Below, one piece after another: positions 6,601 through 31,390 of a stretch of DNA of 64,000 nt. Both the position numbers and the translations under genes were made by a program. Source of the DNA: Syncephalis fuscata (lineage: Eukaryota > Zoopagomycota > Zoopagomycetes > Zoopagales > Piptocephalidaceae). The stretch covers positions 62,001-126,000 of the forward strand of contig JAHLTZ010000045.1 in NCBI GenBank assembly GCA_025786725.1. Reading direction: 5' to 3'. The notes beneath the pieces were generated by a model. The model was not told where the DNA came from and made no database searches. It saw only the letters and a list, made by a program, of their open reading frames with translations. The stretch's first letter is position 1. Each line of letters begins with the position of its first letter.

Positions 6601-9600
6601 TGCTCGAGTCTACAACAACATTTTTAGCATCACAGGTAGCTGACTTGGTGACTGCATCAGTGACTGCGCCTACGCCAGCAGCAGCTGTTGCGGTTTGACC
6701 AATGACACCTGACGATTGAATGGCTGGTCCGGCTGCTTGTGTAATCTCTTGATGAGCTGCATGGGCTCCAGTCTTGATACTGCCTGATGCGCCAACAACT
6801 GACGTCGATCCATCGGCATTAACAACAATGTCGCCAGCTACTGATGTCTCGCCTTCGGCCTTAGCTACAATTGGTTCAACATCGCTCGTCATCCACTGGG
6901 TAACTTGACCGTTAAGTGTTTTGGTGAAGTATTTGGTAATACGACGAACTTGAGTATCCGATATGATCACAGTGCGAATGGACAAATGGCCGCCATCAGC
7001 GTCGGTCTCTTCTGTGGTAAACTCTTGAATACCACCTGATGGTCCAACAATGGTGACATCTTGTGGAGCAGGTGCAACTGGAGCGGCTGGCTGTTCAAGT
7101 GGCTGTTCTTCAGTATTCGACCATTCAGTGACTTCACCATTCAATGTGCGAGTGTAGTACTTGGTAATGCGGCGGCAACGACGTGTACGAACAGTAACTG
7201 TGCGTGTTACTAAACGGGCTCCTTCGGCATCAATGGTCTCATCAACTGCTTCTTCCGGCTCTCCAATCACCTCTTCATCAATTTCAGTAGCAGCTGTTGT
7301 GGTAGTGCTCGAGTCTACAACAACATTTTTAGCATCACAGGTAGCTGACTTGGTGACTGCATCAGTGACTGCGCCTACGCCAGCAGCAGCAGTTGTGGTT
7401 TGACCAATGACACCTGACGATTGAATGGCTGGTCCGGCTGCTTGTGTAATCTCTTGATGAGCTGCATGGGCTCCAGTCTTGATACTGCCTGATGCGCCAA
7501 CAACTGACGTCGATCCATCGGCATTAACAACAATGTCGCCAGCTACTGATGTCTCGCCTTCGGCCTTAGCTACAATTGGTTCAACATCGCTCGTCATCCA
7601 CTGGGTAACTTGACCGTTAAGTGTTTTGGTGAAGTATTTGGTAATACGACGAACTTGAGTATCCGATATGATCACAGTGCGAATGGACAAATGGCCGCCA
7701 TCAGCGTCGGTCTCTTCTGTGGTAAACTCTTGAATACCACCTGATGGTCCAACAATGGTGACATCTTGTGGAGCAGGTGCAACTAGAGCGGCTGGTTGAC
7801 TATCAGCCTGCTTTTGTTCTTCGACAACGATGTTTTTAGTGGCAGTGGTTTCGGAGCAGCTTGAAGTATCTACATCTACATTCACAGCAGCAGCTTCAGT
7901 TGCAACATCGGAAAGCACTGTCTCCTCAGTAGTTGTGATTATGGTCTTAGACTGCAAATCTGTCTCTTGTCTCGTTGTAGAGCAATCAACTTCCTGAATA
8001 ATAGAAGTATCATGCTGTTCAATTGAAACTGTAGTTGAGTCGACGTGCTCTTCTACTGTAGTAGAAGTTTCTGCCTGGCACTCCACTATAGCACTTGTTT
8101 CTGTCGAAGTTGCAATGTCCTCTGACTCTGTTACAGTCTTCACAATCTCTACTGAGTTATTGGAAGTCTGTATAATAATTGTACAATTAATTCAATATAA
8201 TAAATATATTTACTTATTTACTTACCTCAAACGATTCTTGTTGTTGAGTGTTATTCTTAGTAGCAGAGCTCTTGGAAGAAATGATGGCAGCTCCGGCAGC
8301 AACTCCAGCGACAGCAGCAATACCGGCAACGACAGCAGCCGTTTTAGTCGCACTCGACGTCTTTTTAGTAGTCGATGAAGAACCCGTTGATCTTGTTGAT
8401 TCAATTGGCACTGGTGTAGAGTCGGCTGATTTGGTCGACTCCATCGACGCCGAAGCAGAACCCGTTGATCTAGTTGTTTCAACTGGTACTGGTGTAAGAC
8501 CGGGCTCTTTAGCCATGGCGGGGCGGTTAGAGCGATGACGTCTACGGCGTCTCTTGCCAGTACCTGTGCCACTAGCTTCAGTAGAAGCTGGCTGCTCTCC
8601 AGATTTGGCCTTGCGGTTCTTCTTGGCACGATGCTTCTTGTGACGATGCTGCTTCTTACGACGAAGTCTCTTCTCTTTACGCCGTTCCTCACGTGCAGCC
8701 ACCGCCTCTGGCGACATATCTTTAGGACCATCACCTTCCTCTTCATCGGAAGATATATCCTCACTGTCCAATGAAGCATCAGACAACAATTCCTCGTTGC
8801 TTTCATCAGCATCAGAAAGGCCAATGTCATTTTCGCTATCTTCTTCAGATTCAGGTTCCGGTTCAGGGACAGCAACTGAAGCCTCTGGTTTAGCTGTTAC
8901 AGCGGCCGCAACAGCAGCTGTAGTTGCAGCCACAGCAGTTGCAGCAGCTACAACACCCTTTTGGCCGTGGTTCTTGCGACGGTTCTTCTTCTTCTTCTTT
9001 CGTCGGCCACCAGCGCCACTAGCACCGCCATCGGCACCTTGTGGCAAGTCAGTTTCTGAATCACTTTCCTCCAACTCCTGGCTGTCTGAAGCTGTATCAG
9101 CACCAACTTCAATCTCAACTTCATGCTCCTCAGGCACATCTAAAGCAACTTCAACAACTTCGATCGACTCTTCGCTGCGCTCTACATTCCAAGTCAAAAT
9201 CAATCGATAGATAAAGCGACGTCCAAATCGAACAACAACTTGTTGCTGTTGTGTCTCTTCAGTCTTCGTCTCAGTATCAGCTTCAACCAACACACTACGC
9301 TCAACAGTTCGACCTTCTGCAGTAATCCATACATAGATTGTACGACGAATAAACAGTATACCGCCGCGAGTAATTGAATCGGCAGTGGCCACTTGACGGT
9401 CAATAGATAAATCGGACTCAACCAAATCGACTGTTCTAAAACGCTCCTCGCCAGTAAGTTCATCCCAATAAAGAATCTGCCAAATAACACAGCGACGTCC
9501 GTCGCGAGTAGCAATAATAGCATCGTCAAATTGTTGGTCCGGATATACAGCAGCAATGTGGACTACATCGCGCACAAATTGTTCAGTGGCAACATTCCAA

Positions 9601-12600
9601 CGAACAATAGCTCGGCGTACATATTCTTGTCCAGAGCGAATTAGACAAGTAGGAGCACTTCGAGTTAATTGTGCTCGATCATATGTTACATTGGCACTCT
9701 CAACCAAATACTCGATAGTACGTGTAATAATTGTCAAGGTAATAACGCACCAAATGGTAATTGTACGGCGAATAAAGCGACGACCGTCACGTACCACAAT
9801 CTCTGATGTTACATCAGCATCTGATGAATCGCTATCAGAAGCAATATCAATTTCCTCACGGCGCGTAGTTCTGGTAGTTTCATCCCAAACATAAACAACA
9901 CGACGAAGGAAGCGGCGTCCATTGTGAGTGACTGGCGTTACATGTCGTGCTACTGGATTGCCTGGTCGATTATAGGACTCGTCGGGAACCTCTATCTTAT
10001 CATTAATAAACGATTTAGTTATTACATCCCATCGAATAATGTAACGAATAACATAATAACGACCATTACGCTCTACCGTGGTGACAGTATCTGTGTTTTC
10101 AAGTACATCGTCCGTTATATGAACAAATTCTCGAACTTCACGTTGTTGCTGCACATCCCAGCGAACGACTAGACGCCGTGTAAATGTACGACCTTCAACT
10201 ACAACACCAGATGCAGCTGCCAAAGCATTTGGTTGTGCTGCAACATATGTAAGAGCATTGTAATCGTCGGCATCAATTTCAACGACTTCTTCAATCTCCG
10301 TGGCCTGAACTACACTCCAGCAGTATATAACAATACGAATGAATCGACGACCATTACGAACAACTTCTTCGACTTGCTTCATGGCCAATTGGTCGGCGCT
10401 AATAGAATCGGCAGCAACTTCGATCTCCTCATTAACTTCTTGCTGTTGTGATTCTGACCAACGAGTAATAACACGGCGAATATAGCGCTTGCTGTCATTA
10501 CGAATAATCACATCAGTAGCTCCATTGGAAAATACTTGACCAGTACAATGATAGACATCGTCAGCAGAAAGTTCAACTTCTCTTGAAACAGCTGACTGCG
10601 TGCTGTTATCCCAAAAAGTAACCATATAACGAATAAAGCGTTTTCCATCACGAACTACTATAGCGTCGTTCTCTTCTTCTACAGTAGCGGCTGATTCTAA
10701 ATCGTCCAAAGCAACTTCATATGCCTCATTTACAATTGAGCTAGAAATAATATCCCATCGTGTAAATACTCGACGAACAAATCGTCGCTGCGAACGAACA
10801 ATAATGCCAGATTCAATAGATACATTATAAGCATCTGCTGATAGTGATTGCTCAATGTCTATAGTAGGCAATAACAAGGCGGCTTCTGTAGGTCTATCAG
10901 CTTGAGCTTGGGCAGCTTCTTCAGCAGTCAAATTCATTGGCATGTTAATAGGTTTACGCAGGCTCTTCTTTTCGTCATCAGCTTGCGTAGAATGGTCATG
11001 AACGCCAAATAGCTTGCTAAAGAATCCAGACTTGCGAGACGAGTGTTTCTGTTGTGATAGTAACACACCAGCAATAACCGCACTAGCAGCGGCAGTAGAT
11101 ACTGCCGTGGCAGCCACTGCAGTCGTCAATATAGAGCCGGACTCGGCCTCGACCTTCACCACTTCGTCGGTGACTTGCTGCACTTCATCCACGGCAAGTT
11201 CGACTTCTTCGGTCGCTGTCTTGTTTTCTTCGATGCTCCAGTATGTAAATACACGACGCACGAAGCGGCGGCCATTGCGCTCAACAATCGTCTCGGACTC
11301 GGCATCAACGCTGGCTGCTTCTTTAATGTCTTCTACCGCAACTTCGACTTCTTGCTGCACTTCCTTGTTTTCTTCAACACTCCAGCGAGTAAATACGCGA
11401 CGAACAAACACACGGCCCTGTCGGACAACTACGCCAGATGTTGCAAGTGCCGATGTCGTCTCCGACTCGACCTTAATGACCTCGCCGTGCACTTGCTGCA
11501 CCTCATCGGCAGCTACCTCTACATCTTCGCTAACCATTGCGTTCTGTTCGGTGCACCAACGGCTGATGGTGCGGCGTACGAAGCGGCGGCCATTGCGAAC
11601 GACAATTGCCTCAGAGCTGGCTTCAACGCTTGCGGCTTCTTTAACGTCTTCAACCGCGACTTCAGCTTCACGCTGGACTTCTCGGTTCTCTTCAACGCTC
11701 CACCAAGTGAACACACGACGTACAAACAAGCGGCCATTGCGTACAACTACGCCAGATGTAGCAACAGTGTCGGCTGCTACCACTGTGGCAAGCGTAGAGC
11801 CAGACTCGGCTTCTACTTTAACTACTTCGTCGCTAACTTGCTGGACATCATCCACGGCAATCTCGACCTCGTCAGTGACCGTCTTGTTCTCTTCAGCACT
11901 CCAGCGTGTAAATTGGCGGCGTACAAAGCGACGACCATTGCGCTCAACAATCGATTCAGAGTCGACATCAATACTGGCTGCTTCTTTGACTTCATCGGCA
12001 GCCAACTCGACTTCAACCTGGACCTCTTCGTTCTTTTCAGCGTCCCAACGCGTGAATAGACGACGAATAAACACACGACCATCACGAACGGCTGAGCTAG
12101 CAACAATGGCGACGGCTCCGGTAGCTGCTGCAACACCAACAACGGCAGCTGTCGTGGCTGCAGCGGCACTTGTAGTGATTGCTGTCACAAGTCCACTGCC
12201 GGCTTCCGACTCGACCTTGGTGACCTCGACTGTAGCTTCTTGCACTTCATCCACGGCAAGTTCGACTTCTTCGGTCACCGTTTTGTTTTCTTCGATGCTC
12301 CAGTACGTAAATACACGACGCACAAAGCGGCGGCCATTGCGCTCAACAACCGATTCAGATGTCGACTCGACAGTAGCTGCTTCTTTAATGTCTTCTACCG
12401 CAACTTCGACTTCTTGCTGCACTTCCTTGTTCTCTTCAACACTCCAGCGAGTAAACAAACGACGAACAAATAGACGGCCTTGACGGACTGCAACTCCAGC
12501 TGAAGCTGCTGTGGCAACTGCGGCTTCGGTCAATATGCTGCCAGACTCGGCCTCTACCTTAACCACTTCTTCACTGGCCTGTTGCACCTCATCAACGGCA

Positions 12601-15600
12601 ACTTCGACTTCATCGGTCACCGTCTTGTTCTCTTCAACGTTCCAGTGCGTGAATTTACGACGTACAAATCGACGGCCATTGCGCTCGACAACGGCTTCGG
12701 CCTCGGCCTCGGCGGTGATGTTGGCTGCTTCTTTGACTTCTTCAGCGTCAACTTCGACCTCGACTTGGACCTCTTCGTTCTTTTCAGCATCCCAGCGCGT
12801 AAACAAGCGACGAACAAATAGACGGCCTTGACGGACTGCAACTCCTGCTGCTGCTGTGGCAACGACTGCTGTGGCTGCTGTGGCTGCAACTGCTGTCGTC
12901 AATATCGAGCCAGACTCAGCCTCGACCTTCACCACTTCGTCGGTGACTTGCTGCACATCGTCCACAGCTACTTCAACTTCTTCAGTCACGGCCTTGTCTT
13001 CTTCAACACTCCAGCGTGTAAAGTAGCGACGCACAAAACGACGGCCATTGCGCTCAACAATCGTCTCGGACTCGGCATCAACGCTGGCTGCTTCTTTGAC
13101 TTCATCGGCAGCTAGCTCGACCTCGTACTGGACTTCCTTGTTCTCTGCAGTATTCCACCATGTGAATACGCGACGAACAAACACGCGGCCTTGTCGGACA
13201 ACTACGCCAGATGTTGCAAGTGCCGATGTCGTCTCCGACTCGACCTTAATGACCTCGCCGTGCACTTGCTGCACCTCATCGGCAGCTACCTCTACATCTT
13301 CGCTAACCGTTGTGTTCTGTTCGGTGCACCAACGGCTGATGGTGCGGCGTACGAAGCGGCGGCCATTGCGAACAACAATTGCCTCAGAGCTGGCTTCAAC
13401 ACTTGCGGCTTCTTTAACGTCTTCAACCGCGACTTCAGCTTCACGCTGGACTTCTCGGTTTCTTCAACGCTCCACCAAGTGAACACACGACGTACAAACA
13501 AGCGGCCATTGCGTACAACTACGCCAGATGTAGCAACAGTGTCGGCTGCTACCACAGTGGCAAGCGTAGAGCCAGACTCGGCTTCTACTTTGACTATTTC
13601 GTCGTTAACTTGCTGGACATCATCCACGGCAATCTCGACCTCATCAGTGACCGTCTTGTTCTCTTCAGCACTCCAGCGTGTAAATTGGCGGCGTACAAAG
13701 CGACGACCATTGCGCTCAACAATCGATTCAGAGTCGACATCAATACTGGCTGCTTCTTTGACTTCATCGGCAGCCAACTCGACTTCAACCTGGACCTCTT
13801 CGTTCTTTTCAGCGTCCCAACGCGTAAATAGACGACGAATAAACACACGACCATCACGAACGGCTGAGCTGGCAACAATGGCGACGGCTCCGGTAGCTGC
13901 TGCAACACCAACAACGGCAGCTGTCGTGGCTGCAGCGGCACTTGTAGTGATTGCTGTCACAAGTCCACTGCCGGCTTCCGACTCGACCTTGGTGACCTCG
14001 ACTGTAGCTTCTTGCACTTCATCCACGGCAAGTTCGACTTCTTCGGTCACCGTCTTGTTTTCTTCGATGCTCCAGTACGTAAATACACGACGCACGAAGC
14101 GGCGGCCATTGCGCTCAACAACCAATTCAGATGTCGACTCGACAGTAGCTGCTTCTTTAATGTCTTCTACCGCAACTTCGACTTCTTGCTGCACTTCCTT
14201 GTTCTCTTCAACACTCCAGCGAGTAAACAAACGACGAACAAATAGACGGCCTTGACGGACTGCAACTCCAGCTGAAGCTGCTGTGGCAACTGCGGCTTCG
14301 GTCAATATGCTGCCAGACTCGGCCTCTACCTTAACCACTTCTTCACTGGCCTGTTGCACCTCATCAACGGCAACTTCGACTTCATCGGTCACCGTCTTGT
14401 TCTCTTCAACATTCCAGTGCGTGAATTTACGACGTACAAATCGACGGCCATTGCGCTCGACAACGGCTTCGGCCTCGGCCTCGGCGGTGATGTTGGCTGC
14501 TTCTTTGACTTCTTCAGCGTCAACTTCGACCTCGACTTGGACCTCTTCGTTCTTTTCAGCATCCCAGCGCGTAAACAAGCGGCGAACAAATAGACGGCCT
14601 TGACGGACTGCAACTCCTGCTGCTGCTGTGGCAACGACTGCTGTGGCTGCTGTGGCTGCAACTGCTGTCGTCAATATCGAGCCAGACTCAGCCTCGACCT
14701 TCACCACTTCGTCGGTGACTTGCTGCACATCGTCCACAGCTACTTCAACTTCTTCAGTCACGGCCTTGTCTTCTTCAGCACTCCAGCGTGTAAAGTAGCG
14801 ACGCACGAAGCGACGGCCATTGCGCTCAACAATCGTCTCGGACTCGGCATCAACGCTGGCTGCTTCTTTGACTTCATCGGCAGCTAGCTCGACCTCGTAC
14901 TGGACTTCCTTGTTCTCTGCAGTATTCCACCATGTGAATACGCGACGAACAAACACGCGGCCTTGTCGGACAACTACGCCAGATGTTGCAAGTGCCGATG
15001 TCGTCTCCGACTCGACCTTAATGACCTCGCCGTGCACTTGCTGCACCTCATCGGCAGCTACCTCTACATCTTCGCTAACCGTTGTGTTCTGTTCGGTGCA
15101 CCAACGGCTGATGGTGCGGCGTACGAAGCGGCGGCCATTGCGAACAACAATTGCCTCAGAGCTGGCTTCAACACTTGCGGCTTCTTTAACGTCTTCAACC
15201 GCGACTTCAGCTTCACGCTGGACTTCTCGGTTCTCTTCAACGCTCCACCAAGTGAACACACGACGTACAAACAAGCGGCCATTGCGTACAACTACGCCAG
15301 ATGTAGCAACAGTGTCGGCTGCTACCACAGTGGCAAGCGTAGAGCCAGACTCGGCTTCTACTTTGACTACTTCGTCGCTAACTTGCTGGACATCATCCAC
15401 GGCAATCTCGACCTCGTCAGTGACCGTCTTGTTCTCTTCAGCACTCCAGCGTGTAAATTGGCGGCGTACAAAGCGACGACCATTGCGCTCAACAATCGAT
15501 TCAGAGTCGACATCAATACTGGCTGCTTCTTTGACTTCATCGGCAGCCAACTCGACTTCAACCTGGACCTCTTCGTTCTTTTCAGCGTCCCAACGCGTAA

Positions 15601-18600
15601 ATAGACGACGAATAAACACACGACCATCACGAACGGCTGAGCTGGCAACAATGGCGACGGCTCCGGTAGCTGCTGCAACACCAACAACGGCAGCTGTCGT
15701 GGCTGCAGCGGCACTTGTAGTGATTGCTGTCACAAGTCCACTGCCGGCTTCCGACTCGACCTTGGTGACCTCGACTGTAGCTTCTTGCACTTCATCCACG
15801 GCAAGTTCGACTTCTTCGGTCACCGTCTTGTTTTCTTCGATGCTCCAGTACGTAAATACACGACGCACGAAGCGGCGGCCATTGCGCTCAACAACCAATT
15901 CAGATGTCGACTCGACAGTAGCTGCTTCTTTAATGTCTTCTACCGCAACTTCGACTTCTTGCTGCACTTCCTTGTTCTCTTCAACACTCCAGCGAGTAAA
16001 CAAACGACGAACAAATAGACGGCCTTGACGGACTGCAACTCCAGCTGAAGCTGCTGTGGCAACTGCGGCTTCGGTCAATATGCTGCCAGACTCGGCCTCT
16101 ACCTTAACCACTTCTTCACTGGCCTGTTGCACCTCATCAACGGCAACTTCGACTTCATCGGTCACCGTCTTGTTCTCTTCAACATTCCAGTGCGTGAATT
16201 TACGACGTACAAATCGACGGCCATTGCGCTCGACAACGGCTTCGGCCTCGGCCTCGGCGGTGATGTTGGCTGCTTCTTTGACTTCTTCAGCGTCAACTTC
16301 GACCTCGACTTGGACCTCTTCGTTCTTTTCAGCATCCCAGCGCGTAAACAAGCGACGAACAAATAGACGGCCTTGACGGACTGCAACTCCTGCTGCTGCT
16401 GTGGCAACGACTGCTGTGGCTGCTGTGGCTGCAACTGCTGTCGTCAATATCGAGCCAGACTCAGCCTCGACCTTCACCACTTCGTCGGTGACTTGCTGCA
16501 CATCGTCCACAGCTACTTCAACTTCTTCAGTCACGGCCTTGTCTTCTTCAACACTCCAGCGTGTAAAGTAGCGACGCACAAAACGACGGCCATTGCGCTC
16601 AACAATCGTCTCGGACTCGGCATCAACGCTGGCTGCTTCTTTGACTTCATCGGCAGCTAGCTCGACCTCGTACTGGACTTCCTTGTTCTCTGCAGTATTC
16701 CACCATGTGAATACGCGACGAACAAACACGCGGCCTTGTCGGACAACTACGCCAGATGTTGCAAGTGCCGATGTCGTCTCCGACTCGACCTTAATGACCT
16801 CGCCGTGCACTTGCTGCACCTCATCGGCAGCTACCTCTACATCTTCGCTAACCGTTGTGTTCTGTTCGGTGCACCAACGGCTGATGGTGCGGCGTACGAA
16901 GCGGCGGCCATTGCGAACAACAATTGCCTCAGAGCTGGCTTCAACACTTGCGGCTTCTTTAACGTCTTCAACCGCGACTTCAGCTTCACGCTGGACTTCT
17001 CGGTTCTCTTCAACGCTCCACCAAGTGAACACACGACGTACAAACAAGCGGCCATTGCGTACAACTACGCCAGATGTAGCAACAGTGTCGGCTGCTACCA
17101 CAGTGGCAAGCGTAGAGCCAGACTCGGCTTCTACTTTGACTACTTCGTCGCTAACTTGCTGGACATCATCCACGGCAATCTCGACCTCGTCAGTGACCGT
17201 CTTGTTCTCTTCAGCACTCCAGCGTGTAAATTGGCGGCGTACAAAGCGACGACCATTGCGCTCAACAATCGATTCAGAGTCGACATCAATACTGGCTGCT
17301 TCTTTGACTTCATCGGCAGCCAACTCGACTTCAACCTGGACCTCTTCGTTCTTTTCAGCGTCCCAACGCGTAAATAGACGACGAATAAACACACGACCAT
17401 CACGAACGGCTGAGCTGGCAACAATGGCGACGGCTCCGGTAGCTGCTGCAACACCAACAACGGCAGCTGTCGTGGCTGCAGCGGCACTTGTAGTGATTGC
17501 TGTCACAAGTCCACTGCCGGCTTCCGACTCGACCTTGGTGACCTCGACTGTAGCTTCTTGCACTTCATCCACGGCAAGTTCGACTTCTTCGGTCACCGTC
17601 TTGTTTTCTTCGATGCTCCAGTACGTAAATACACGACGCACGAAGCGGCGGCCATTGCGCTCAACAACCAATTCAGATGTCGACTCGACAGTAGCTGCTT
17701 CTTTAATGTCTTCTACCGCAACTTCGACTTCTTGCTGCACTTCCTTGTTCTCTTCAACACTCCAGCGAGTAAACAAACGACGAACAAATAGACGGCCTTG
17801 ACGGACTGCAACTCCAGCTGAAGCTGCTGTGGCAACTGCGGCTTCGGTCAATATGCTGCCAGACTCGGCCTCTACCTTAACCACTTCTTCACTGGCCTGT
17901 TGCACCTCATCAACGGCAACTTCGACTTCATCGGTCACCGTCTTGTTCTCTTCAACATTCCAGTGCGTGAATTTACGACGTACAAATCGACGGCCATTGC
18001 GCTCGACAACGGCTTCGGCCTCGGCGGTGATGTTGGCTGCTTCTTTGACTTCTTCAGCGTCAACTTCGACCTCGACTTGGACCTCTTCGTTCTTTTCAGC
18101 ATCCCAGCGCGTAAACAAGCGACGAACAAATAGACGGCCTTGACGGACTGCAACTCCTGCTGCTGCTGTGGCAACGACTGCTGTGGCTGCTGTGGCTGCA
18201 ACTGCTGTCGTCAATATCGAGCCAGACTCAGCCTCGACCTTCACCACTTCGTCGGTGACTTGCTGCACATCGTCCACAGCTACTTCAACTTCTTCAGTCA
18301 CGGCCTTGTCTTCTTCAACACTCCAGCGTGTAAAGTAGCGACGCACGAAGCGACGGCCATTGCGCTCAACAATCGTCTCGGACTCGGCATCAACGCTGGC
18401 TACTTCTTTGACTTCATCGGCAGCTAGCTCGACCTCGTACTGGACTTCCTTGTTCTCTGCAGTATTCCACCATGTGAATACGCGACGAACAAACACGCGG
18501 CCTTGTCGGACAACTACGCCAGATGTTGCAAGTGCCGATGTCGTCTCCGACTCGACCTTAATGACCTCGCCGTGCACTTGCTGCACCTCATCGGCAGCTA

Positions 18601-21600
18601 CCTCTACATCTTCGCTAACCGTTGTGTTCTGTTCGGTGCACCAACGGCTGATGGTGCGGCGTACGAAGCGGCGGCCATTGCGAACAACAATTGCCTCAGA
18701 GCTGGCTTCAACACTTGCGGCTTCTTTAACGTCTTCAACCGCGACTTCAGCTTCACGCTGGACTTCTCGGTTTTCTTCAACGCTCCACCAAGTGAACACA
18801 CGACGTACAAACAAGCGGCCATTGCGTACAACTACGCCAGATGTAGCAACAGTGTCGGCTGCTACCACAGTGGCAAGCGTAGAGCCAGACTCGGCTTCTA
18901 CTTTGACTACTTCGTCGCTAACTTGCTGGACATCATCCACGGCAATCTCGACCTCATCAGTGACCGTCTTGTTCTCTTCAGCACTCCAGCGTGTAAATTG
19001 GCGGCGTACAAAGCGACGACCATTGCGCTCAACAATCGATTCAGAGTCGACATCAATACTGGCTGCTTCTTTGACTTCATCGGCAGCCAACTCGACTTCA
19101 ACCTGGACCTCTTCGTTCTTTTCAGCGTCCCAACGCGTAAATAGACGACGAATAAACACACGACCATCACGAACGGCTGAGCTGGCAACAATGGCGACGG
19201 CTCCGGTAGCTGCTGCAACATCAACAACGGCAGCTGTCGTGGCTGCAGCGGCACTTGTAGTGATTGCTGTCACAAGTCCACTGCCGGCTTCCGACTCGAC
19301 CTTGGTGACCTCGACTGTAGCTTCTTGCACTTCATCCACGGCAAGTTCGACTTCTTCGGTCACCGTTTGTTTTCTTCGATGCTCCAGTACGTAAATACAC
19401 GACGCACGAAGCGGCGGCCATTGCGCTCAACAACCAATTCAGATGTCGACTCGACAGTAGCTGCTTCTTTAATGTCTTCTACCGCAACTTCGACTTCTTG
19501 CTGCACTTCCTTGTTCTCTTCAACACTCCAGCGAGTAAACAAACGACGAACAAATAGACGGCCTTGACGGACTGCAACTCCAGCTGAAGCTGCTGTGGCA
19601 ACTGCGGCTTCGGTCAATATGCTGCCAGACTCGGCCTCTACCTTAACCACTTCTTCACTGGCCTGTTGCACCTCATCAACGGCAACTTCGACTTCATCGG
19701 TCACCGTCTTGTTCTCTTCAACGTTCCAGTGCGTGAATTTACGACGTACAAATCGACGGCCATTGCGCTCGACAACGGCTTCGGCCTCGGCCTCGGCGGT
19801 GATGTTGGCTGCTTCTTTGACTTCTTCAGCGTCAACTTCGACCTCGACTTGGACCTCTTCGTTCTTTTCAGCATCCCAGCGCGTAAACAAGCGGACGAAC
19901 AAATAGACGGCCTTGACGGACTGCAACTCCTGCTGCTGCTGTGGCAACGACTGCTGTGGCTGCTGTGGCTGCAACTGCTGTCGTCAATATCGAGCCAGAC
20001 TCAGCCTCGACCTTCACCACTTCGTCGGTGACTTGCTGCACATCGTCCACAGCTACTTCAACTTCTTCAGTCACGGCCTTGTCTTCTTCAACACTCCAGC
20101 GTGTAAAGTAGCGACGCACAAAACGACGGCCATTGCGCTCAACAATCGTCTCGGACTCGGCATCAACGCTGGCTGCTTCTTTGACTTCATCGGCAGCTAG
20201 CTCGACCTCGTACTGGACTTCCTTGTTCTCTGCAGTATTCCACCATGTGAATACGCGACGAACAAACACGCGGCCTTGTCGGACAACTACGCCAGATGTT
20301 GCAAGTGCCGATGTCGTCTCCGACTCGACCTTAATGACCTCGCCGTGCACTTGCTGCACCTCATCGGCAGCTACCTCTACATCTTCGCTAACCGTTGTGT
20401 TCTGTTCGGTGCACCAACGGCTGATGGTGCGGCGTACGAAGCGGCGGCCATTGCGAACAACAATTGCCTCAGAGCTGGCTTCAACACTTGCGGCTTCTTT
20501 AACGTCTTCAACCGCGACTTCAGCTTCACGCTGGACTTCTCGGTTCTCTTCAACGCTCCACCAAGTGAACACACGACGTACAAACAAGCGGCCATTGCGT
20601 ACAACTACGCCAGATGTAGCAACAGTGTCGGCTGCTACCACAGTGGCAAGCGTAGAGCCAGACTCGGCTTCTACTTTGACTACTTCGTCGCTAACTTGCT
20701 GGACATCATCCACGGCAATCTCGACCTCGTCAGTGACCGTCTTGTTCTCTTCAGCACTCCAGCGTGTAAATTGGCGGCGTACAAAGCGACGACCATTGCG
20801 CTCAACAATCGATTCAGAGTCGACATCAATACTGGCTGCTTCTTTGACTTCATCGGCAGCCAACTCGACTTCAACCTGGACCTCTTCGTTCTTTTCAGCG
20901 TCCCAACGCGTAAATAGACGACGAATAAACACACGACCATCACGAACGGCTGAGCTGGCAACAATGGCGACGGCTCCGGTAGCTGCTGCAACACCAACAA
21001 CGGCAGCTGTCGTGGCTGCAGCGGCACTTGTAGTGATTGCTGTCACAAGTCCACTGCCGGCTTCCGACTCGACCTTGGTGACCTCGACTGTAGCTTCTTG
21101 CACTTCATCCACGGCAAGTTCGACTTCTTCGGTCACCGTCTTGTTTTCTTCGATGCTCCAGTACGTAAATACACGACGCACGAAGCGGCGGCCATTGCGC
21201 TCAACAACCAATTCAGATGTCGACTCGACAGTAGCTGCTTCTTTAATGTCTTCTACCGCAACTTCGACTTCTTGCTGCACTTCCTTGTTCTCTTCAACAC
21301 TCCAGCGAGTAAACAAACGACGAACAAATAGACGGCCTTGACGGACTGCAACTCCAGCTGAAGCTGCTGTGGCAACTGCGGCTTCGGTCAATATGCTGCC
21401 AGACTCGGCCTCTACCTTAACCACTTCTTCGCTGGCCTGTTGCACCTCATCGACGGCAACTTCGACTTCATCGGTCACCGTCTTGTTCTCTTCAACATTC
21501 CAGTGCGTGAATTTACGACGTACAAATCGACGGCCATTGCGCTCGACAACGGCTTCGGCCTCGGCCTCGGCGGTGATGTTGGCTGCTTCTTTGACTTCTT

Positions 21601-24600
21601 CAGCGTCAACTTCGACCTCGACTTGGACCTCTTCGTTCTTTTCAGCATCCCAGCGCGTAAACAAGCGGCGAACAAATAGGCGCCTTGACGGACTGCAACT
21701 CCTGCTGCTGCTGTGGCAACGACTGCTGTGGCTGCTGTGGCTGCAACTGCTGTCGTCAATATCGAGCCAGACTCAGCCTCGACCTTCACCACTTCGTCGG
21801 TGACTTGCTGCACATCGTCCACAGCTACTTCAACTTCTTCAGTCACGGCCTTGTCTTCTTCAACACTCCAGCGTGTAAAGTAGCGACGCACGAAGCGACG
21901 GCCATTGCGCTCAACAATCGTCTCGGACTCGCATCACACTGGCTGCTTCTTTGACTTCATCGGCAGCTAGCTCGACCTCGTACTGGACTTCCTTGTTCTC
22001 TGCAGTATTCCACCATGTGAATACGCGACGAACAAACACGCGGCCCTGTCGGACAACTACGCCAGATGTTGCAAGTGCCGATGTCGTCTCCGACTCGACC
22101 TTAATGACCTCGCCGTGCACTTGCTGCACCTCATCGGCAGCTACCTCTACATCTTCGCTAACCATTGCGTTCTGTTCGGTGCACCAACGGCTGATGGTGC
22201 GGCGTACGAAGCGGCGGCCATTGCGAACGACAATTGCCTCAGAGCTGGCTTCAACGCTTGCGGCTTCTTTAACGTCTTCAACCGCGACTTCAGCTTCACG
22301 CTGGACTTCTCGGTTCTCTTCAACGCTCCACCAAGTGAACACACGACGTACAAACAAGCGGCCATTGCGTACAACTACGCCAGATGTAGCAACAGTGTCG
22401 GCTGCTACCACTGTGGCAAGCGTAGAGCCAGACTCGGCTTCTACTTTGACTACTTCGTCGCTAACTTGCTGGACATCATCCACGGCAATCTCGACCTCGT
22501 CAGTGACCGTCTTGTTCTCTTCAGCACTCCAGCGTGTAAATTGGCGGCGTACAAAGCGACGACCATTGCGCTCAACAATCGATTCAGAGTCGACATCAAT
22601 ACTGGCTGCTTCTTTGACTTCATCGGCAGCCAACTCGACTTCAACCTGGACCTCTTCGTTCTTTTCAGCGTCCCAACGCGTGAATAGACGACGAATAAAC
22701 ACACGACCATCACGAACGGCTGAGCTGGCAACAATGGCGACGGCTCCGGTAGCTGCTGCAACACCAACAACGGCAGCTGTCGTGGCTGCAGCGGCACTTG
22801 TAGTGATTGCTGTCACAAGTCCACTGCCGGCTTCCGACTCGACCTTGGTGACCTCGACTGTAGCTTCTTGCACTTCATCCACGGCAAGTTCGACTTCTTC
22901 GGTCACCGTTTTGTTTTCTTCGATGCTCCAGTACGTAAATACACGACGCACAAAGCGGCGGCCATTGCGCTCAACAACCGATTCAGATGTCGACTCGACA
23001 GTAGCTGCTTCTTTAATGTCTTCTACCGCAACTTCGACTTCTTGCTGCACTTCCTTGTTCTCTTCAACACTCCAGCGAGTAAACAAACGACGAACAAATA
23101 GACGGCCTTGACGGACTGCAACTCCAGCTGAAGCTGCTGTGGCAACTGCGGCTTCGGTCAATATGCTGCCAGACTCGGCCTCTACCTTAACCACTTCTTC
23201 GCTGGCCTGTTGCATCTCATCGACGGCAACTTCGACTTCATCGGTCACCGTCTTGTTCTCTTCAACGTTCCAGTGCGTGAATTTACGACGTACAAATCGA
23301 CGGCCATTGCGCTCGACAACGGCTTCGGCCTCGGCCTCGGCGGTGATGTTGGCTGCTTCTTTGACTTCTTCAGCGTCAACTTCGACCTCGACTTGGACCT
23401 CTTCGTTCTTTTCAGCATCCCAGCGCGTAAACAAGCGGCGAACAAATAGGCGGCCTTGACGGACTGCAACTCCTGCTGCTGCTGTGGCAACGACTGCTGT
23501 GGCTGCTGTGGCTGCAACTGCTGTCGTCAATATCGAGCCAGACTCAGCCTCGACCTTCACCACTTCGTCGGTGACTTGCTGCACATCGTCCACAGCTACT
23601 TCAACTTCTTCAGTCACGGCCTTGTCTTCTTCAACACTCCAGCGTGTAAAGTAGCGACGCACGAAGCGACGGCCATTGCGCTCAACAATCGTCTCGGACT
23701 CTGCATCGACACTGGCTGCTTCTTTGACTTCATCGGCAGCTAGCTCGACCTCGTACTGGACTTCCTTGTTCTCTGCAGTATTCCACCATGTGAATACGCG
23801 ACGAACAAACACGCGGCCCTGTCGGACAACTACGCCAGATGTTGCAAGTGCCGATGTCGTCTCCGACTCGACCTTAATGACCTCGCCGTGCACTTGCTGC
23901 ACCTCATCGGCAGCTACCTCTACATCTTCGCTAACCATTGCGTTCTGTTCGGTGCACCAACGGCTGATGATGCGGCGTACGAAGCGGCGGCCATTGCGAA
24001 CGACAATTGCCTCAGAGCTGGCTTCAACGCTTGCGGCTTCTTTAACGTCTTCAACCGCGACTTCAGCTTCACGCTGGACTTCTCGGTTCTCTTCAACGCT
24101 CCACCAAGTGAACACACGACGTACAAACAAGCGGCCATTGCGTACAACTACGCCAGATGTAGCAACAGTGTCGGCTGCTACCACTGTGGCAAGCGTAGAG
24201 CCAGACTCGGCTTCTACTTTAACTACTTCGTCGCTAACTTGCTGGACATCATCCACGGCAATCTCGACCTCGTCAGTGACCGTCTTGTTCTCTTCAGCAC
24301 TCCAGCGTGTAAATTGGCGGCGTACAAAGCGACGACCATTGCGCTCAACAATCGATTCAGAGTCGACATCAATACTGGCTGCTTCTTTGACTTCATCGGC
24401 AGCCAACTCGACTTCAACCTGGACCTCTTCGTTCTTTTCAGCGTCCCAACGCGTGAATAGACGACGAATAAACACACGACCATCACGAACGGCTGAGCTG
24501 GCAACAATGGCGACGGCTCCGGTAGCTGCTGCAACACCAACAACGGCAGCTGTCGTGGCTGCAGCGGCACTTGTAGTGATTGCTGTCACAAGTCCACTGC

Positions 24601-27600
24601 CGGCTTCCGACTCGACCTTGGTGACCTCGACTGTAGCTTCTTGCACTTCATCCACGGCAAGTTCGACTTCTTCGGTCACCGTTTTGTTTTCTTCGATGCT
24701 CCAGTACGTAAATACACGACGCACAAAGCGGCGGCCATTGCGCTCAACAACCGATTCAGATGTCGACTCGACAGTAGCTGCTTCTTTAATGTCTTCTACC
24801 GCAACTTCGACTTCTTGCTGCACTTCCTTGTTCTCTTCAACACTCCAGCGAGTAAACAAACGACGAACAAATAGACGGCCTTGACGGACTGCAACTCCAG
24901 CTGAAGCTGCTGTGGCAACTGCGGCTTCGGTCAATATGCTGCCAGACTCGGCCTCTACCTTAACCACTTCTTCGCTGGCCTGTTGCATCTCATCGACGGC
25001 AACTTCGACTTCATCGGTCACCGTCTTGTTCTCTTCAACGTTCCAGTGCGTGAATTTACGACGTACAAATCGACGGCCATTGCGCTCGACAACGGCTTCG
25101 GCCTCGGCCTCGGCGGTGATGTTGGCTGCTTCTTTGACTTCTTCAGCGTCAACTTCGACCTCGACTTGGACCTCTTCGTTCTTTTCAGCATCCCAGCGCG
25201 TAAACAAGCGGCGAACAAATAGGCGGCCTTGACGGACTGCAACTCCTGCTGCTGCTGTGGCAACGACTGCTGTGGCTGCTGTGGCTGCAACTGCTGTCGT
25301 CAATATCGAGCCAGACTCAGCCTCGACCTTCACCACTTCGTCGGTGACTTGCTGCACATCGTCCACAGCTACTTCAACTTCTTCAGTCACGGCCTTGTCT
25401 TCTTCAACACTCCAGCGTGTAAAGTAGCGACGCACGAAGCGACGGCCATTGCGCTCAACAATCGTCTCGGACTCTGCATCGACACTGGCTGCTTCTTTGA
25501 CTTCATCGGCAGCTAGCTCGACCTCGTACTGGACTTCCTTGTTCTCTGCAGTATTCCACCATGTGAATACGCGACGAACAAACACGCGGCCCTGTCGGAC
25601 AACTACGCCAGATGTTGCAAGTGCCGATGTCGTCTCGACTCGACCTTAATGACCTCGCCGTGCACTTGCTGCACCTCATCGGCAGCTACCTCTACATCTT
25701 CGCTAACCATTGCGTTCTGTTCGGTGCACCAACGGCTGATGTGCGGCGTACGAAGCGGCGGCCATTGCGAACGACAATTGCCTCAGAGCTGGCTTCAACG
25801 CTTGCGGCTTCTTTAACGTCTTCAACCGCGACTTCAGCTTCACGCTGGACTTCTCGGTTCTCTTCAACGCTCCACCAAGTGAACACACGACGTACAAACA
25901 AGCGGCCATTGCGTACAACTACGCCAGATGTAGCAACAGTGTCGGCTGCTACCACTGTGGCAAGCGTAGAGCCAGACTCGGCTTCTACTTTAACTACTTC
26001 GTCGCTAACTTGCTGGACATCATCCACGGCAATCTCGACCTCGTCAGTGACCGTCTTGTTCTCTTCAGCACTCCAGCGTGTAAATTGGCGGCGTACAAAG
26101 CGACGACCATTGCGCTCAACAATCGATTCAGAGTCGACATCAATACTGGCTGCTTCTTTGACTTCATCGGCAGCCAACTCGACTTCAACCTGGACCTCTT
26201 CGTTCTTTTCAGCGTCCCAACGCGTGAATAGACGACGAATAAACACACGACCATCACGAACGGCTGAGCTGGCAACAATGGCGACGGCTCCGGTAGCTGC
26301 TGCAACACCAACAACGGCAGCTGTCGTGGCTGCAGCGGCACTTGTAGTGATTGCTGTCACAAGTCCACTGCCGGCTTCCGACTCGACCTTGGTGACCTCG
26401 ACTGTAGCTTCTTGCACTTCATCCACGGCAAGTTCGACTTCTTCGGTCACCGTCTTGTTTTCTTCGATGCTCCAGTACGTAAATACACGACGCACAAAGC
26501 GGCGGCCATTGCGCTCAACAACCGATTCAGATGTCGACTCGACAGTAGCTGCTTCTTTAATGTCTTCTACCGCAACTTCGACTTCTTGCTGCACTTCCTT
26601 GTTCTCTTCAACACTCCAGCGAGTAAACAAACGACGAACAAATAGACGGCCTTGACGGACTGCAACTCCAGCTGAAGCTGCTGTGGCAACTGCGGCTTCG
26701 GTCAATATGCTGCCAGACTCGGCCTCTACCTTAACCACTTCTTCGCTGGCCTGTTGCATCTCATCGACGGCAACTTCGACTTCATCGGTCACCGTCTTGT
26801 TCTCTTCAACGTTCCAGTGCGTGAATTTACGACGTACAAATCGACGGCCATTGCGCTCGACAACGGCTTCGGCCTCGGCCTTGGCGGTGATGTTGGCTGC
26901 TTCTTTGACTTCTTCAGCGTCAACTTCGACCTCGACTTGGACCTCTTCGTTCTTTTCAGCATCCCAGCGCGTAAACAAGCGGCGAACAAATAGGCGGCCT
27001 TGACGGACTGCAACTCCTGCTGCTGCTGTGGCAACGACTGCTGTGGCTGCTGTGGCTGCAACTGCTGTCGTCAATATCGAGCCAGACTCAGCCTCGACCT
27101 TCACCACTTCGTCGGTGACTTGCTGCACATCGTCCACAGCTACTTCAACTTCTTCAGTCACGGCCTTGTCTTCTTCAACACTCCAGCGTGTAAAGTAGCG
27201 ACGCACGAAGCGACGGCCATTGCGCTCAACAATCGTCTCGGACTCTGCATCGACACTGGCTGCTTCTTTGACTTCATCGGCAGCTAGCTCGACCTCGTAC
27301 TGGACTTCCTTGTTCTCTGCAGTATTCCACCATGTGAATACGCGACGAACAAACACGCGGCCCTGTCGGACAACTACGCCAGATGTTGCAAGTGCCGATG
27401 TCGTCTCCGACTCGACCTTAATGACCTCGCCGTGCACTTGCTGCACCTCATCGGCAGCTACCTCTACATCTTCGCTAACCATTGTGTTCTGTTCGGTGCA
27501 CCAACGGCTGATGGTGCGGCGTACGAAGCGGCGGCCATTGCGAACGACAATTGCCTCAGAGCTGGCTTCAACACTTGCGGCTTCTTTAACGTCTTCAACC

Positions 27601-30600
27601 GCAACTTCAGCTTCACGCTGGACTTCTCGGTTCTCTTCAACGCTCCACCAAGTGAACACACGACGTACAAACAAGCGGCCATTGCGTACAACTACGCCAG
27701 CCTTTCAGCTGCTGCCTTAGCGGTCTCAGTCAGCTTGCTGTTAGACTTGGCTTCCACTTTAACTACTTCAACATTGGCACTTTGAAGATCATCGACAGCA
27801 ACTTCAGTTGTTTCTTCAATAGACTGACTAGTTTCACTGTCCCATCGTCGGAAAGTACGACGAATAAAGCGACGACCGTTGCGCTCAATAATTTTGCTTT
27901 CAGAAATGTTGGCAACTGCAGACGAAATATCTTCAGCATCTACTTCAATTTCTTTTTGCTCTTCAGCGCCGGTAACTTCGTTCCAGTAGGTAAATGTACG
28001 AATAACGTAACGACGACGGACACGAACAATAACAACGGCAGTAATAGTGGCTACTTCAGACTTGGCCAGTTCTAAATCATTGGCATCAATACACACTTCA
28101 CGTTCAACAATGCGTTGCTTAATCTGATCCCAAATACTGAATCGACGAACAATGTAACGACGTCCTTTACGCGTAATAACCGAGCCACGTAAAACTTCAG
28201 TCTGATCAGCGGCCTTATTAATGTCGTCTTCAGCCAGCTCAATCATAAAAGAGACCGATTGCCTTGCACGAGAATCCCAGAATCTCATGAACCGACGAAT
28301 AAACCGACGGCTTTGTCGAATAATTACAGAAGCCGATAGGCTAAGTACTTCAGTGTGTGCTGTCTGAAGATCTGAAGATTCTAAATAAATTTCTTCTTGT
28401 ACTGACTCATTAGTAGCGGCATTCCAACGAGTAAATTGGCGAACCAAGAATGTACGGCCATCATGGCTAATGGTTTGGAAGGTGCCTTCTTGTGCCAAGG
28501 CAGTCTCTTCAATGTCCTGAGCAGCAATCTCAAGCTCCTTTTGTACAAGCTGGCGAGTGCTATAGTAGTAGACTGTATAGATTCGCTTAACAAAGCGACG
28601 ACCATGATGAAAAACGACTATATCAGCCGGTGAGGCGTTCAACGTCTTGAAAGATTCCTCACAGCAACGAGTAAGTTCCTCAGCGTTAAGTTCCAGCTCT
28701 TCTTCTGTCAGCTCATTTGTTTCATCATTCCAACGGGCAAATACACGACGAACAAACTTGTGGCCATGACGGAAAATAATATAAGCACGGCATGTTGCCG
28801 CATGTTCTTTGGCTGAAGTTATATCATCAAGAGCCAGCTCAACTTCAATAGGAATGGCACGGTCCTTTGAAACACTCCAGCGCATAAATGTATAGCGAAT
28901 AAAACGTTCGTTATTGCGTAGAATAACATGTTCGTTGCTGTTAGAGTATAGCTCTTGACGAGCAAGGTCAAAGGCACTATTGACATCGTCCAAATCTAGT
29001 TCAATAATTTCCTGAACAATAGAGCGAGTTCGAACATCCCAGCGACGGAATACACGGCGAATAAAGCGGCGCTCGTTACGAACCATCACAACTATAGACG
29101 ATTGGTGAGCGTGAGCTGCAAATTCCAGCTGGTCGAGCGGTATCTCAGCTTCCTCGTGAGTAATCGTCTGGCTTTCGTGGTGCCAGCGACTAAAGACACG
29201 ACGAACAAATCGGCGGCCCGAACGAATAATAACTTGTGAGGTGTAAGTGCCAGCATAATTGCTCTTCCTGCGCAAGAGATCACCAGTATCGGCTACGTAG
29301 ATCTCACGGACTTCTTGGTGCTCTTGGCCACTTTCTTCGTTCCAGCGAAGAACCATTCGACGAACGTAGCGACGGCCCTGACGTGTGGACACAACATCAT
29401 CCTTACCAGATGTCTCATTGTCGGAGTCATCGTTGGCCTTATCCATAACATGTACCATGGTTAAATCTTCACGTTGTGCTTTCTCGTCCCATAAATAGAC
29501 ATAGCGCCGAATAAAACGAATATTACCACGAACAAGTACATTAACAGCAAATATAGGATTTAAAGCAATACTGCCGGCACGTTCTACATCGTCGACCAGA
29601 AGGTCAAATTCTTCAACAACTGGCTGACATTGCTTTCGACTCCAACGAGTAAAAGTATAGTGTCCAATGCGCTTGCCATTTTGTTCGGTGATTTTGATAC
29701 TCTCATGGTTGTTAATAGTAGCTGCGGCAGCTAGACGCAGTTCTTCTTCATCGAATTCAAATTCATGTTCATTCAAACGAGCTTGCTTGGTGAACCAGCA
29801 AGTAAAGAATCGGCGTACAAATCGACGCGACTGGCGAACAATAACAGCCGTTGGAATGTTGGCAATGGCAACATAAGCCTGTTGTAAGTCATCAATGGCT
29901 ACTTCGTTGCTTTCATCAACGGTCTTTTTGGCACGAGCATCCCATTTGCTAATAACATGCTTGTAAAAACGACGTCCATTATGGACAACAATATTGGCAC
30001 ACGAATTGTCGGTACATTCGCCAATAATGTTGGCCACATCATCGACAAACATCTCGCCAACTCGGCGGTTCTCACGTCCGGCAACAGAGTCCCAGAAGGT
30101 AAATACGCGTCGTAGATAGCGCCGGCGATGGTGTACAATCGACACAGCGGCCAGTGTAGAGATTTCAGTTTGTGCCTGGCAAAGATCTTCTGACGAAATT
30201 GTCAGCTCTCCCTGACCAATACGGAAAGATGGCTGTCCCAGTAAGTAAATTGGATGCGGACATAGCGGCGACCATTGCGAACAACAATGTTAGCGCCATC
30301 ACCGCTCAAAGCAATGCCAACAGCACGCTGTACATCGTTGGCCGACAGCTCAATTTCTTCGCGAGAGCTTGCATTAGATGTTTCGTCCCATCGAATAAAT
30401 ATACGACGAATTAAGCGATGGCCACTTCGAATAACAATACTTGCTGCAAGGTTGGATGCCTCGACATCAGCCAGCTTAACATCATCTTGCAACAATTCAG
30501 TATCCAAATAGGCAACAGCATTGGTCTGAACATCCCATAGTGTGTAAACACGATGCACGTAGCGTTGGCCAGCGTGGATTTTGATTGAAGTAGCGTCTTG

Positions 30601-31390
30601 AGGCTCACTAGCAGCTTGGGCAATATCTTCGGCCGCAACCTCGACCGGTTCCTGAATAGCAGAAGATGTATCAGCGCACCAGCGGCTAATGATACGACGA
30701 ATAAAACGACGGCCATTACGGACAATGACTTGGGAAGCGAAACGGGCTGCTTCGGCAATTGCAAGATCAACATCATCAACGGCCAATTCCATAACACTGC
30801 GGTCGCTCTTGGCAAGCTTCAAATTCCATTGCGAGATAGAATATTTGATAAAACGGCGATTCTTATGCGTGGTATTGATGCCAGAAGACTTGCACCAGCA
30901 CGACTAACCGCTTCAATAAGATCGTCGGCACTTAGTTCGAGCTCTCGAGTTTCAATACGAGCTCCCGAAGAGATGTAACAAGCGAAGGACCGGCGAATAA
31001 AGCGTCGGCCCGAACGTACAATAACACGACCCGTGTCTTTGCTGTCCTTATTGCTCATTATAGTAGTGGTCGAGGCAAGACCAGAAGCCAAAGAAGAGCC
31101 GGGTTCGACATCTCGGCTCTTGGACTTTTGAGGCTTGCCAAAGAACCAGGACTCAACTCGATGAACAGCAGTAGCTACCCCTTCGACGGCATCGTGAGCA
31201 ACATGACTAATAATGTTCTCTGAAGCTTGTTCTTCAGTTACTGGCGTCTTTTCTTCTTGACGAGACGATGGCTGCGATGGCAAAGGCTTAGTGCTGCTTC
31301 TGGTTGTGACGGCGGCTGTTGTGGTAGTACTGACATGCGTTTTGATGATGATGACGCAGCAGAAGCCGGGGCCGGTTTGGCTTCTATTTC
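3698..31390 (-). CDS. Giant tandem-repeat protein (at least ~9,200 residues)
   Basis: The product is not recognised. The last exon (3698-8167, in frame) joins the upstream exon through a 58-nt GT-AG intron (8168-8225). From the N-terminus it shows: a Ser/Lys-rich start; diverged single repeats (about 31000-27700); the 1,773-bp higher-order array (about 27690-11125); more diverged repeats (10900-9200); an acidic and Lys/Arg-rich block (about 9150-8500); an Ala/Thr-rich tail; then, in the last exon, a different repeat family. The main domain is about 45-60 residues with core G-R-x-F-[VI]-R-R-x-[FI]-T-x-W followed by acidic [VI]-E-[VIL] strands. The last-exon domain has core D-G-G-x-L-x-I-R-T-V and R-I-T-K-Y-[FY]-T-K-x-L-N-G. 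Frame breaks occur near 13460, 19366, 19893, 21682, 21930/21936, 25636, 25740, 27705, 30225, 30880 and 31240-31390. They are best read as base-call errors, but a pseudogene is not excluded. No signal peptide is seen in this part. Confidence 0.75.
4260..5040 (-). repeat. Coding tandem repeat, 261-bp unit, 3 copies
   Basis: An 87-residue unit (one D-G-G-H-L-T-I-R-T-V ... T-K-Y-F-T-K-N-L-N-G domain plus an Ala-rich linker) recurs at a 261-bp spacing in the last exon of the giant gene. It is the same domain family as the 705-bp array but is amplified with a different register and unit length, so the two arrays arose in separate expansions. Confidence 0.9.
5260..7790 (-). repeat. Coding tandem repeat, 705-bp unit, ~3.6 copies
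   Basis: Inside the last exon of the giant gene, identical landmarks recur at 5751, 6456 and 7161, a period of 705 bp or 235 residues. Each unit contains two T-K-Y-[FY]-T-K-x-L-N-G domains and a Gly/Ala/Ser-rich spacer. The copies are nearly identical in DNA. A fourth, partial copy lies on the low-coordinate side and ends near 5260, where the sequence changes to GAAANTAVGVQDF. Confidence 0.95.
11125..27690 (-). repeat. Coding higher-order tandem repeat, 1,773-bp unit, ~9.3 copies
   Basis: Landmarks recur at about 1,773-bp spacing (for example 12240, 14012, 15785, 17558, 19325, 21098, 22868, 24641 and 26412). Each unit encodes 591 residues made of ten G-R-x-F-V-R-R domains arranged as five A-B pairs, with an Ala/Thr/Val-rich linker after most B domains. 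Neighbouring copies differ by only a few bases. One copy lacks 6 bp near 18018 (one Ala-Glu pair). Shifts of 1-3 bp in spacing coincide with the frame breaks. The unit length is a multiple of three, so copy-number change keeps the reading frame. Copy number in the assembly may be collapsed or expanded. Confidence 0.95.

Follow-up and report, generated by a model that had tools for sequence, protein, structure and literature searches.

The 64,000-nucleotide stretch of Syncephalis fuscata DNA considered here (the window; bases 62001–126000 of contig C240, which is 151,723 bp long) carries on its minus strand what is, on balance, best read as a single gene, running from 32932 to 3698 and encoding one giant, probably membrane-anchored predicted protein of about 9,700 residues. 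With its 58-bp intron removed, the gene would measure 29,177 bp between start and stop codons, and the amplified repeat tail of its product would serve as a scaffold or tether. In its fullest form, for which the chances seem about even, this reading describes a seven-helix receptor-like protein with a cytoplasmic tail of about 9,000 residues, in which about 128 charge-polar domains and 13 domains of a second type include two separately amplified higher-order arrays, the second differing in unit number between assembled copies. Such a protein would be a membrane-anchored scaffold of adjustable length, found so far in one fungus.

The array that first drew attention lies in the middle of this gene. 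An initial annotation of the window, made from the sequence alone, had described a 591-residue unit of ten domains, encoded by 1,773 bp and present in about nine copies; nine complete units are indeed found, arranged head to tail on the minus strand from 27695 to 11751, and a partial tenth follows them.

11751..27695, minus strand: nine complete 591-codon units, U1–U9, each with ten type-1 domains (A1 B1 ... A5 B5), from the unit alignment and domain tree.
11150..11750, minus strand: a partial, chimeric tenth unit with four domains (A1 B1 A2 B2), from the unit alignment and domain tree.

U1 occupies 27695–25923 and U9 13522–11751. Unit lengths range from 1767 to 1773 bp and pairwise identities among the nine from 98.64 to 99.94%, in keeping with the near absence of divergence originally claimed, and the consensus of 1773 bp reads as 591 open codons. 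In the tenth unit, which ends at about 11150, A2 and B2 are chimeric, with A4 and B4 sequence. Each unit encodes ten domains of about 40 residues apiece, built around the core G-R-x-F-V-R-R-x-F-T-x-W. A hidden Markov model (HMM) of this domain gave 131 matches in the window at E<0.01 (22 before the array, 97 within it and 12 after it), none of them on the plus strand. The 97 array matches include domains that a frame break has cut in two; the number expected from nine ten-domain units plus four domains is 94.

The ten domains of a unit, correctly counted in the initial annotation, are organized as five A/B dimers, giving the array a four-level hierarchy of domain, A/B dimer, five-dimer unit and nine units. 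In a tree of the domains (40 residues each, no support values shown), of the kind proposed at the outset as a check, A1–A5 group apart from B1–B5, and the flanking domain N10 is placed among the B type. The proportion of nonsynonymous differences (pN) is 0.165 and 0.153 within the two types, versus 0.283 between them. Because the two types separate in the tree and pN is lower within them, the array is likely to have grown from domain to dimer, from dimer to five dimers, and from these to nine units. The units themselves form two similarity groups, U1–U3 and U5–U9, which is the pattern expected under step-wise local duplication; a count of exactly nine rests on the present assembly and is not proven. 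Besides the dimers, the initial annotation had missed the strand, the diverged domains on either side of the array, a second exon with an array of its own, and the membrane protein upstream.

A second copy of part of the locus (window 2353–20087) is present on contig C46, at 98.8–99.3% identity. Its array comprises four complete units and breaks off, at the end of the contig, within a fifth.

Is the array a satellite or a protein? Among the nine units, 33 codons are variable (codon 150 partly as an alignment effect beside an indel), and 21 of them vary synonymously only. Pooled over all unit pairs, the ratio of nonsynonymous to synonymous differences (pN/pS) is 0.125 in the coding frame and 2.43 and 1.20 in the other two, as is expected of the coding higher-order repeat originally proposed; a ratio this low in one frame only is at odds with a centromeric, non-coding satellite. 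The comparison of C240 with C46 extends the test to exon 1 after the array and to exon 2. Here, pN/pS is 0.12 for the array part (22 differences), 0.21 for exon 1 after the array (10 differences), 0.123 for one part of exon 2 (31 differences) and 0.172 for the rest of it (26 differences). Since the ratio is low both among units and between contigs, the array and both downstream parts are maintained in frame as protein. No second copy of window 28000–33000, with the first 22 domains and the membrane segment, was found in the genome (searches covered 28.95 Mb in 299 contigs), and the result on selection applies to the array and the parts downstream of it.

What kind of domain is being amplified? 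In agreement with the initial annotation, which recognized no described family, the type-1 domain has no family above cut-off in Pfam, in NCBIfam (scanned with one open reading frame, or ORF, containing such domains) or among PDB sequences. The Pfam matches were weak and differed between members (DUF4279, CsgE, TetR_C_16, W_rich_C), falling below cut-off where a cut-off was shown; they were rejected as family assignments, as were the weak matches to PDB sequences. Neither Ig/FnIII nor nebulin-repeat families were among the Pfam matches. AlphaFold2 predicted a beta-beta-beta-alpha fold four times over, with a predicted local distance difference test score (pLDDT) of 87.1. The topology of Whirly and PUR folds, a sheet-plus-helix repeat pair, gave weak structural matches only, and Whirly, PUR-alpha and SsgB are among the nearest known systems that can be named for the domain. 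An AP2 or integrase arm-binding fold was considered and rejected, as no such chain occurs in the best 50 of 727 Foldseek matches or in 21 VIA-align rows. All 40 of the domains tested are polar in charge, with a basic front (strands 1–2) and an acidic back (strand 3 and the helix); shuffled controls gave a mean of 9.4 and a maximum of 20 in 2,000 shuffles. The modeled domain is a beta-beta-beta-alpha module with oppositely charged faces.

Relatives in other species were sought by protein searches, each of which scored, under a length limit, the roughly 8,000 candidates with the most words in common. They returned only P0001, a fragment from S. fuscata, and the ORF itself, and viral contigs gave no match. 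The fragment, annotated as BDF19DRAFT_416907 and 441 residues long, agrees with ORF 27692–30145 at 382 of 382 aligned residues, which assigns the genome to S. fuscata (Zoopagales) or a strain very close to it. Away from this locus and C46, neither type-1 nor type-2 domains were found in the genome at E<=0.001; a search at E<=1 adds one match on contig C230 (E=0.28), to a basic linker.

The array proves to be only the middle of the gene. The very long repetitive protein that had been foreseen holds as far as the array is coding, and more coding sequence lies on both sides of it.

27776..31025, minus strand: 22 diverged type-1 domains before the array, from the domain HMM.
9117..10811, minus strand: 12 diverged type-1 domains after the array, from the domain HMM.
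8226..9116, minus strand: the end of exon 1, with acidic stretches, basic clusters and two Ala-rich hydrophobic segments, from composition and hydropathy.
8168..8225, minus strand: a 58-bp intron, GTAAGT...TTATACAG, in phase 0, joining two open frames, from the splice consensus and the C46 copy.
3698..8167, minus strand: exon 2, of 1,489 codons plus stop, with 13 type-2 domains, from the open frame and domain count.
5660..7774, minus strand: the second array, in exon 2, with three 235-codon units and a partial fourth, from the unit alignment.

Before the array, the frame changes at 30903–30822, 30289–30205 and 27704–27695. That exon 2 with its amplified units belongs to the same gene as the array is well supported, since the splice sites fit the consensus, the phase is 0 and the intron is kept in C46 (with one change). 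Its 3' end, ATTATACAG, is also that of an intron in the neighboring ATP synthase gene. Ala-rich hydrophobic segments occur near the end of exon 1 (8954–8898 and 8336–8262) and also in the linkers of the first array, with mean hydropathy values among all of them of up to 2.38; as membrane segments, these could alter the topology of the protein.

Exon 2 sequence is found in the genome only here and in C46. Its domains are of a different kind, and HHalign detected no relation between type 1 and type 2. Pfam family PF20836 scored 29.5 bits against a cut-off of 25.3 on the exon-2 repeats, but no single stretch passed, and the match was treated as an artefact of repetition. The three 235-codon units are 99.6–99.9% identical. 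Exon 2 contains 1,497 open residues in the window versus 1,262 in C46, a difference of 235, so the second array is one whole unit shorter in C46. The initial annotation had predicted that length could change in steps of whole units, and in the second array it does. A step of 591 residues was not seen directly, because C46 ends within the first array.

How, then, does the protein begin? Immediately upstream of the repeats lies an ORF for a probable membrane segment, and the two are bridged by a short coding-like stretch:

31238..32932, minus strand: a 564-amino-acid (aa) ORF with a probable seven-helix membrane segment (residues about 8–294) and the start of a long tail, the probable 5' part of the gene, from hand assignment and a model.
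31058..31388, minus strand: a coding-like frame-2 stretch linking the membrane ORF to the first domain, with no in-frame ATG before 31058, from three-frame reading and coding score.
31431..31456, minus strand: a short motif, SGFFS(R/K)L(W/F)G, within the tail portion of the membrane ORF, from a genome pattern search.
11005..11030, minus strand: the motif again, as SGFFSKLFG, shortly beyond the array, from the same search.

The 564-aa ORF, of which one copy was found in the genome, was assigned seven helices with basic inner loops by hand before any model was seen, and a single-sequence AlphaFold2 model later placed its seven main helical stretches in roughly matching positions. When this low-confidence model was submitted to Foldseek, 15 G-protein-coupled receptors (GPCRs) were among the best 50 rows, all at E 0.15 or worse, which is a hint only. 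The ORF has no PDB sequence match and no match to a 7tm family of Pfam, and for this reason the segment is not filed as a GPCR.

The membrane segment is likely to be the N-terminus of the giant repeat protein, because the coding score is continuous and the motif is confined to this locus and C46. The score, from a codon model whose training set was ATP synthase and other portions of this gene, stays positive in at least one frame between 32925 and 29900 and dips only in scoring windows that straddle a frame switch (near 31350, from frame 0 to frame 2, and near 30885 and 30200), leaving no non-coding gap between the membrane ORF and the domains. Across 29 Mb the degenerate motif pattern matched three times, in each case here or in the copy of the locus on C46, and a reversed control had no match; the pattern was built from the two places at this locus, so that only the absence of a third place is informative.

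The strongest alternative, a tenable but doubtful one, divides the locus into two genes: a 564-residue seven-helix protein and a separate giant repeat protein, cytosolic or nuclear, that starts at ATG 31058 and includes exon 2. The smaller ORF has its own stop, a database protein of exactly that length exists, and the ATG at 31058 is in frame. However, frame 2 scores strongly as coding for about 300 bp upstream of this ATG, partly within the 3' end of the other ORF, and contains no ATG there. The motif, moreover, turned up in these two ORFs and in the copy on C46 but nowhere else, which argues for one gene.

If the single gene is accepted, on which side of the membrane are the repeats? The loop charges of the hand-assigned membrane segment suggest that they are cytoplasmic. 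The reverse arrangement, an adhesin or wall protein that grips the host fungus and whose length is tuned by unit number, appears improbable. Fungal adhesins often carry repeat arrays varying in unit number, and exon 2 is rich in threonine (15.5%), both of which would suit a place outside the cell. So would the habit of the genus, whose members are mycoparasites according to the portions of two accounts available (PMC6784888, PMC10386755). On the other hand, no signal peptide is recognizable by eye at either candidate start, and basic clusters and a cysteine content of 1 per 591 residues are unlike a secreted protein, while the loop charges favor a cytoplasmic tail.

The single gene must also contend with its frame breaks. 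The initial annotation held that the array is kept in frame; this is true of the 591-codon consensus and not letter for letter, as frame-breaking indels are present in U2, U4, U5 and U9. If these breaks were real, the array would be a pseudogene in this strain, which seems very unlikely. Such decay would be consistent with the distribution of breaks by the author's count (eleven in 19.3–32.9 kb versus one, at 13459, in 3.7–19.3 kb) and with a deletion that recurs in two units of C46. Against it, pN/pS stays low, and the indels themselves have the look of sequencing errors. None is common to two window units, and a hand count of seven gap events gives eight single-base indels, nearly equal to the number of clean singleton substitutions in the nine units (10, after four of 14 were set aside as lying beside an indel of U4). 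Long-read error typically gives a ratio of indels to substitutions near one, and mutation does not. No window indel was found again in identical form in C46, which lacks the break at 13459; near 19370 one base is lost in both contigs, but different bases. Aligned with the window, C46 has eleven gaps, ten of them frame-breaking, all in its last 4.5 kb; aligned with the unit consensus, it has 11 single-base deletions in its last three units and 0 in the two units before. Because the window indels are unshared and not repeated identically in C46, and the C46 deletions are confined to its last three units, the evidence points to sequencing error as the probable source of the breaks.

That one or a few units were inflated to nine during assembly is highly improbable: C46 does end within the array, a sign of difficult assembly, and its left flank is not collinear with that of C240, but the units differ at the variable codons noted above and carry distinguishing variants in two groups, the frame is under selection, and C46 has its own four complete units and shares an in-frame 6-base deletion of U6 in the matching unit.

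The relationship between the contigs is less clear. Only window 2353–20087 is common to both; at the junction (window 2353, C46:604119–604120), the C46 flank is the end of a long terminal repeat (LTR)-like repeat of about 650 bp, with more than 20 further copies at 82–87% among the matches listed. To the left of it, the two contigs show no collinearity across 43 kb (C46) and 22 kb (C240) and have only short or transposon-like matches in common. The pair may represent alleles, a segmental duplication or a mis-join, which cannot be told apart. For the first array, a clear exchange of whole units between the contigs was considered, since by substitutions the positional partner is the nearest window unit for just one of the five units in C46. 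The margins, though, are <=2 bases in four of the five, and the U6 deletion is shared, so that unit exchange is only suggested.

Several observations weigh against a single intact membrane-anchored protein. The membrane segment passes a strict hydropathy cut-off in only three regions, its model has a pLDDT of only 42, and no 7tm Pfam family is listed for the 564-aa ORF. The join to the repeats requires an inferred indel near 31350, and the stretch 31388–27695 requires three more. The database proteins are short: P0002, identical to the 564-aa ORF, stops at the stop codon of that ORF, and the match of P0001 to the domain region spans only 382 residues. Summed over pairs, the three exon-2 units show 2 synonymous and 4 nonsynonymous differences (pN/pS 0.68), six changes being too few to show selection among those units. 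The neighboring units c1 and c2 of C46 carry one single-base deletion at the same column (713/714, where U5 has an insertion), which is either a systematic error or hotspot, or a real break that was copied. A raised error rate in this gene region is an assumption, and the BCS1 and ATP synthase parts could be read by eye without any break. Finally, the scaffold role is a proposal drawn solely from the anatomy.

What might a single membrane-anchored protein of this size do? To judge by its anatomy, the repeat tail could act under the membrane as an extended multivalent scaffold or tether. The opposite charges of the domain faces would allow pairing within A/B dimers, between neighboring dimers and between chains. 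The amplified unit would then determine how long the tail is and how many binding sites it offers, in the manner of the super-repeats of nebulin and titin, and unequal exchange would change the length in steps of 591 or 235 residues with the frame intact.

Other genes and probable mobile sequence lie elsewhere in the window. Beside the 3' end of the gene is a retroelement, recognized by its reverse transcriptase (PF00078, E 2e-26; window 2–1078, minus strand), and window 44600–47212 matches C46:600113–602724 at 97% and is probably a transposable element. An uninterrupted 660-aa ORF (window 51136–53118, plus strand) has no Pfam match at E 0.01. Three genes were identified by family match:

53700–54845, minus strand: BCS1 gene, with introns.
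58334–58825, minus strand: gene for an L21-type ribosomal protein.
61000–63198, plus strand: ATP synthase alpha gene, with introns; one copy was found in the assembly.

How does this array compare with known systems? A higher-order repeat inside coding sequence is also found in the human NBPF/Olduvai family, which is built from another domain. Super-repeats occur in titin, with units far more diverged than the 98.6–99.9% identity seen here, and in nebulin, from modules of about 35 residues. Ice nucleation proteins have a nested 48-residue order. The architecture is therefore not peculiar to centromeric satellites, as the initial annotation had supposed; the available parts of two accounts describe super-repeats in the A-band region of titin and the center of nebulin (PMC10665226, PMC7109182). 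In titin, like positions resemble each other across units, most clearly the central ones, and in the C-zone and D-zone a constant set of diverged domains makes up a larger unit, copies of which follow one another, much as in this array (PMC10665226, in part). The titin domains, in contrast, are Ig and FnIII, in animal muscle, and Pfam found none here. In nebulin, seven simple repeats are grouped into a super-repeat and an eight-exon block is triplicated, with variation in copy number (PMC7109182, in part), a grouping and variability similar to those seen here; its modules, however, bind actin and are spread over many exons, whereas the new beta-beta-beta-alpha domain is repeated within one exon. 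Bacterial ice nucleation proteins also consist of tandem repeats (one example has 65, each sixteen residues long; PMC9418140, in part) but form a solenoid of short repeats rather than a series of folded domains. The closest parallel to the membrane head may be the GPCRs with C-terminal fusions (kinase, PIPK), in which a seven-helix receptor carries a large C-terminal module (PMC12716839, in part). Those modules are enzymes, whereas here a giant repeat tail would follow a seven-helix segment without a 7tm profile match. A literature search on giant repeat proteins with seven transmembrane helices in fungi found no paper, and the available excerpts of the literature that mentions Syncephalis fuscata contain nothing on this gene.

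If the membrane segment is joined to the repeats, the mycoparasite would possess a protein that resembles a receptor and ends in a giant tail of repeats; protein searches found fragments of it only. The near-identity of the units opens the birth, exchange and homogenization of super-repeats to study, two contigs being already one unit apart in one array. Super-repeat proteins as such were known from titin and nebulin; this one differs from them in its domain, its kingdom, the near-identity of its units, the pairing of two arrays within a single gene and, probably, a membrane head. Amplification of the higher-order, satellite-like kind acts here on a folded and selected protein in a fungus, outside the muscle proteins, and does so in two arrays of the same gene.

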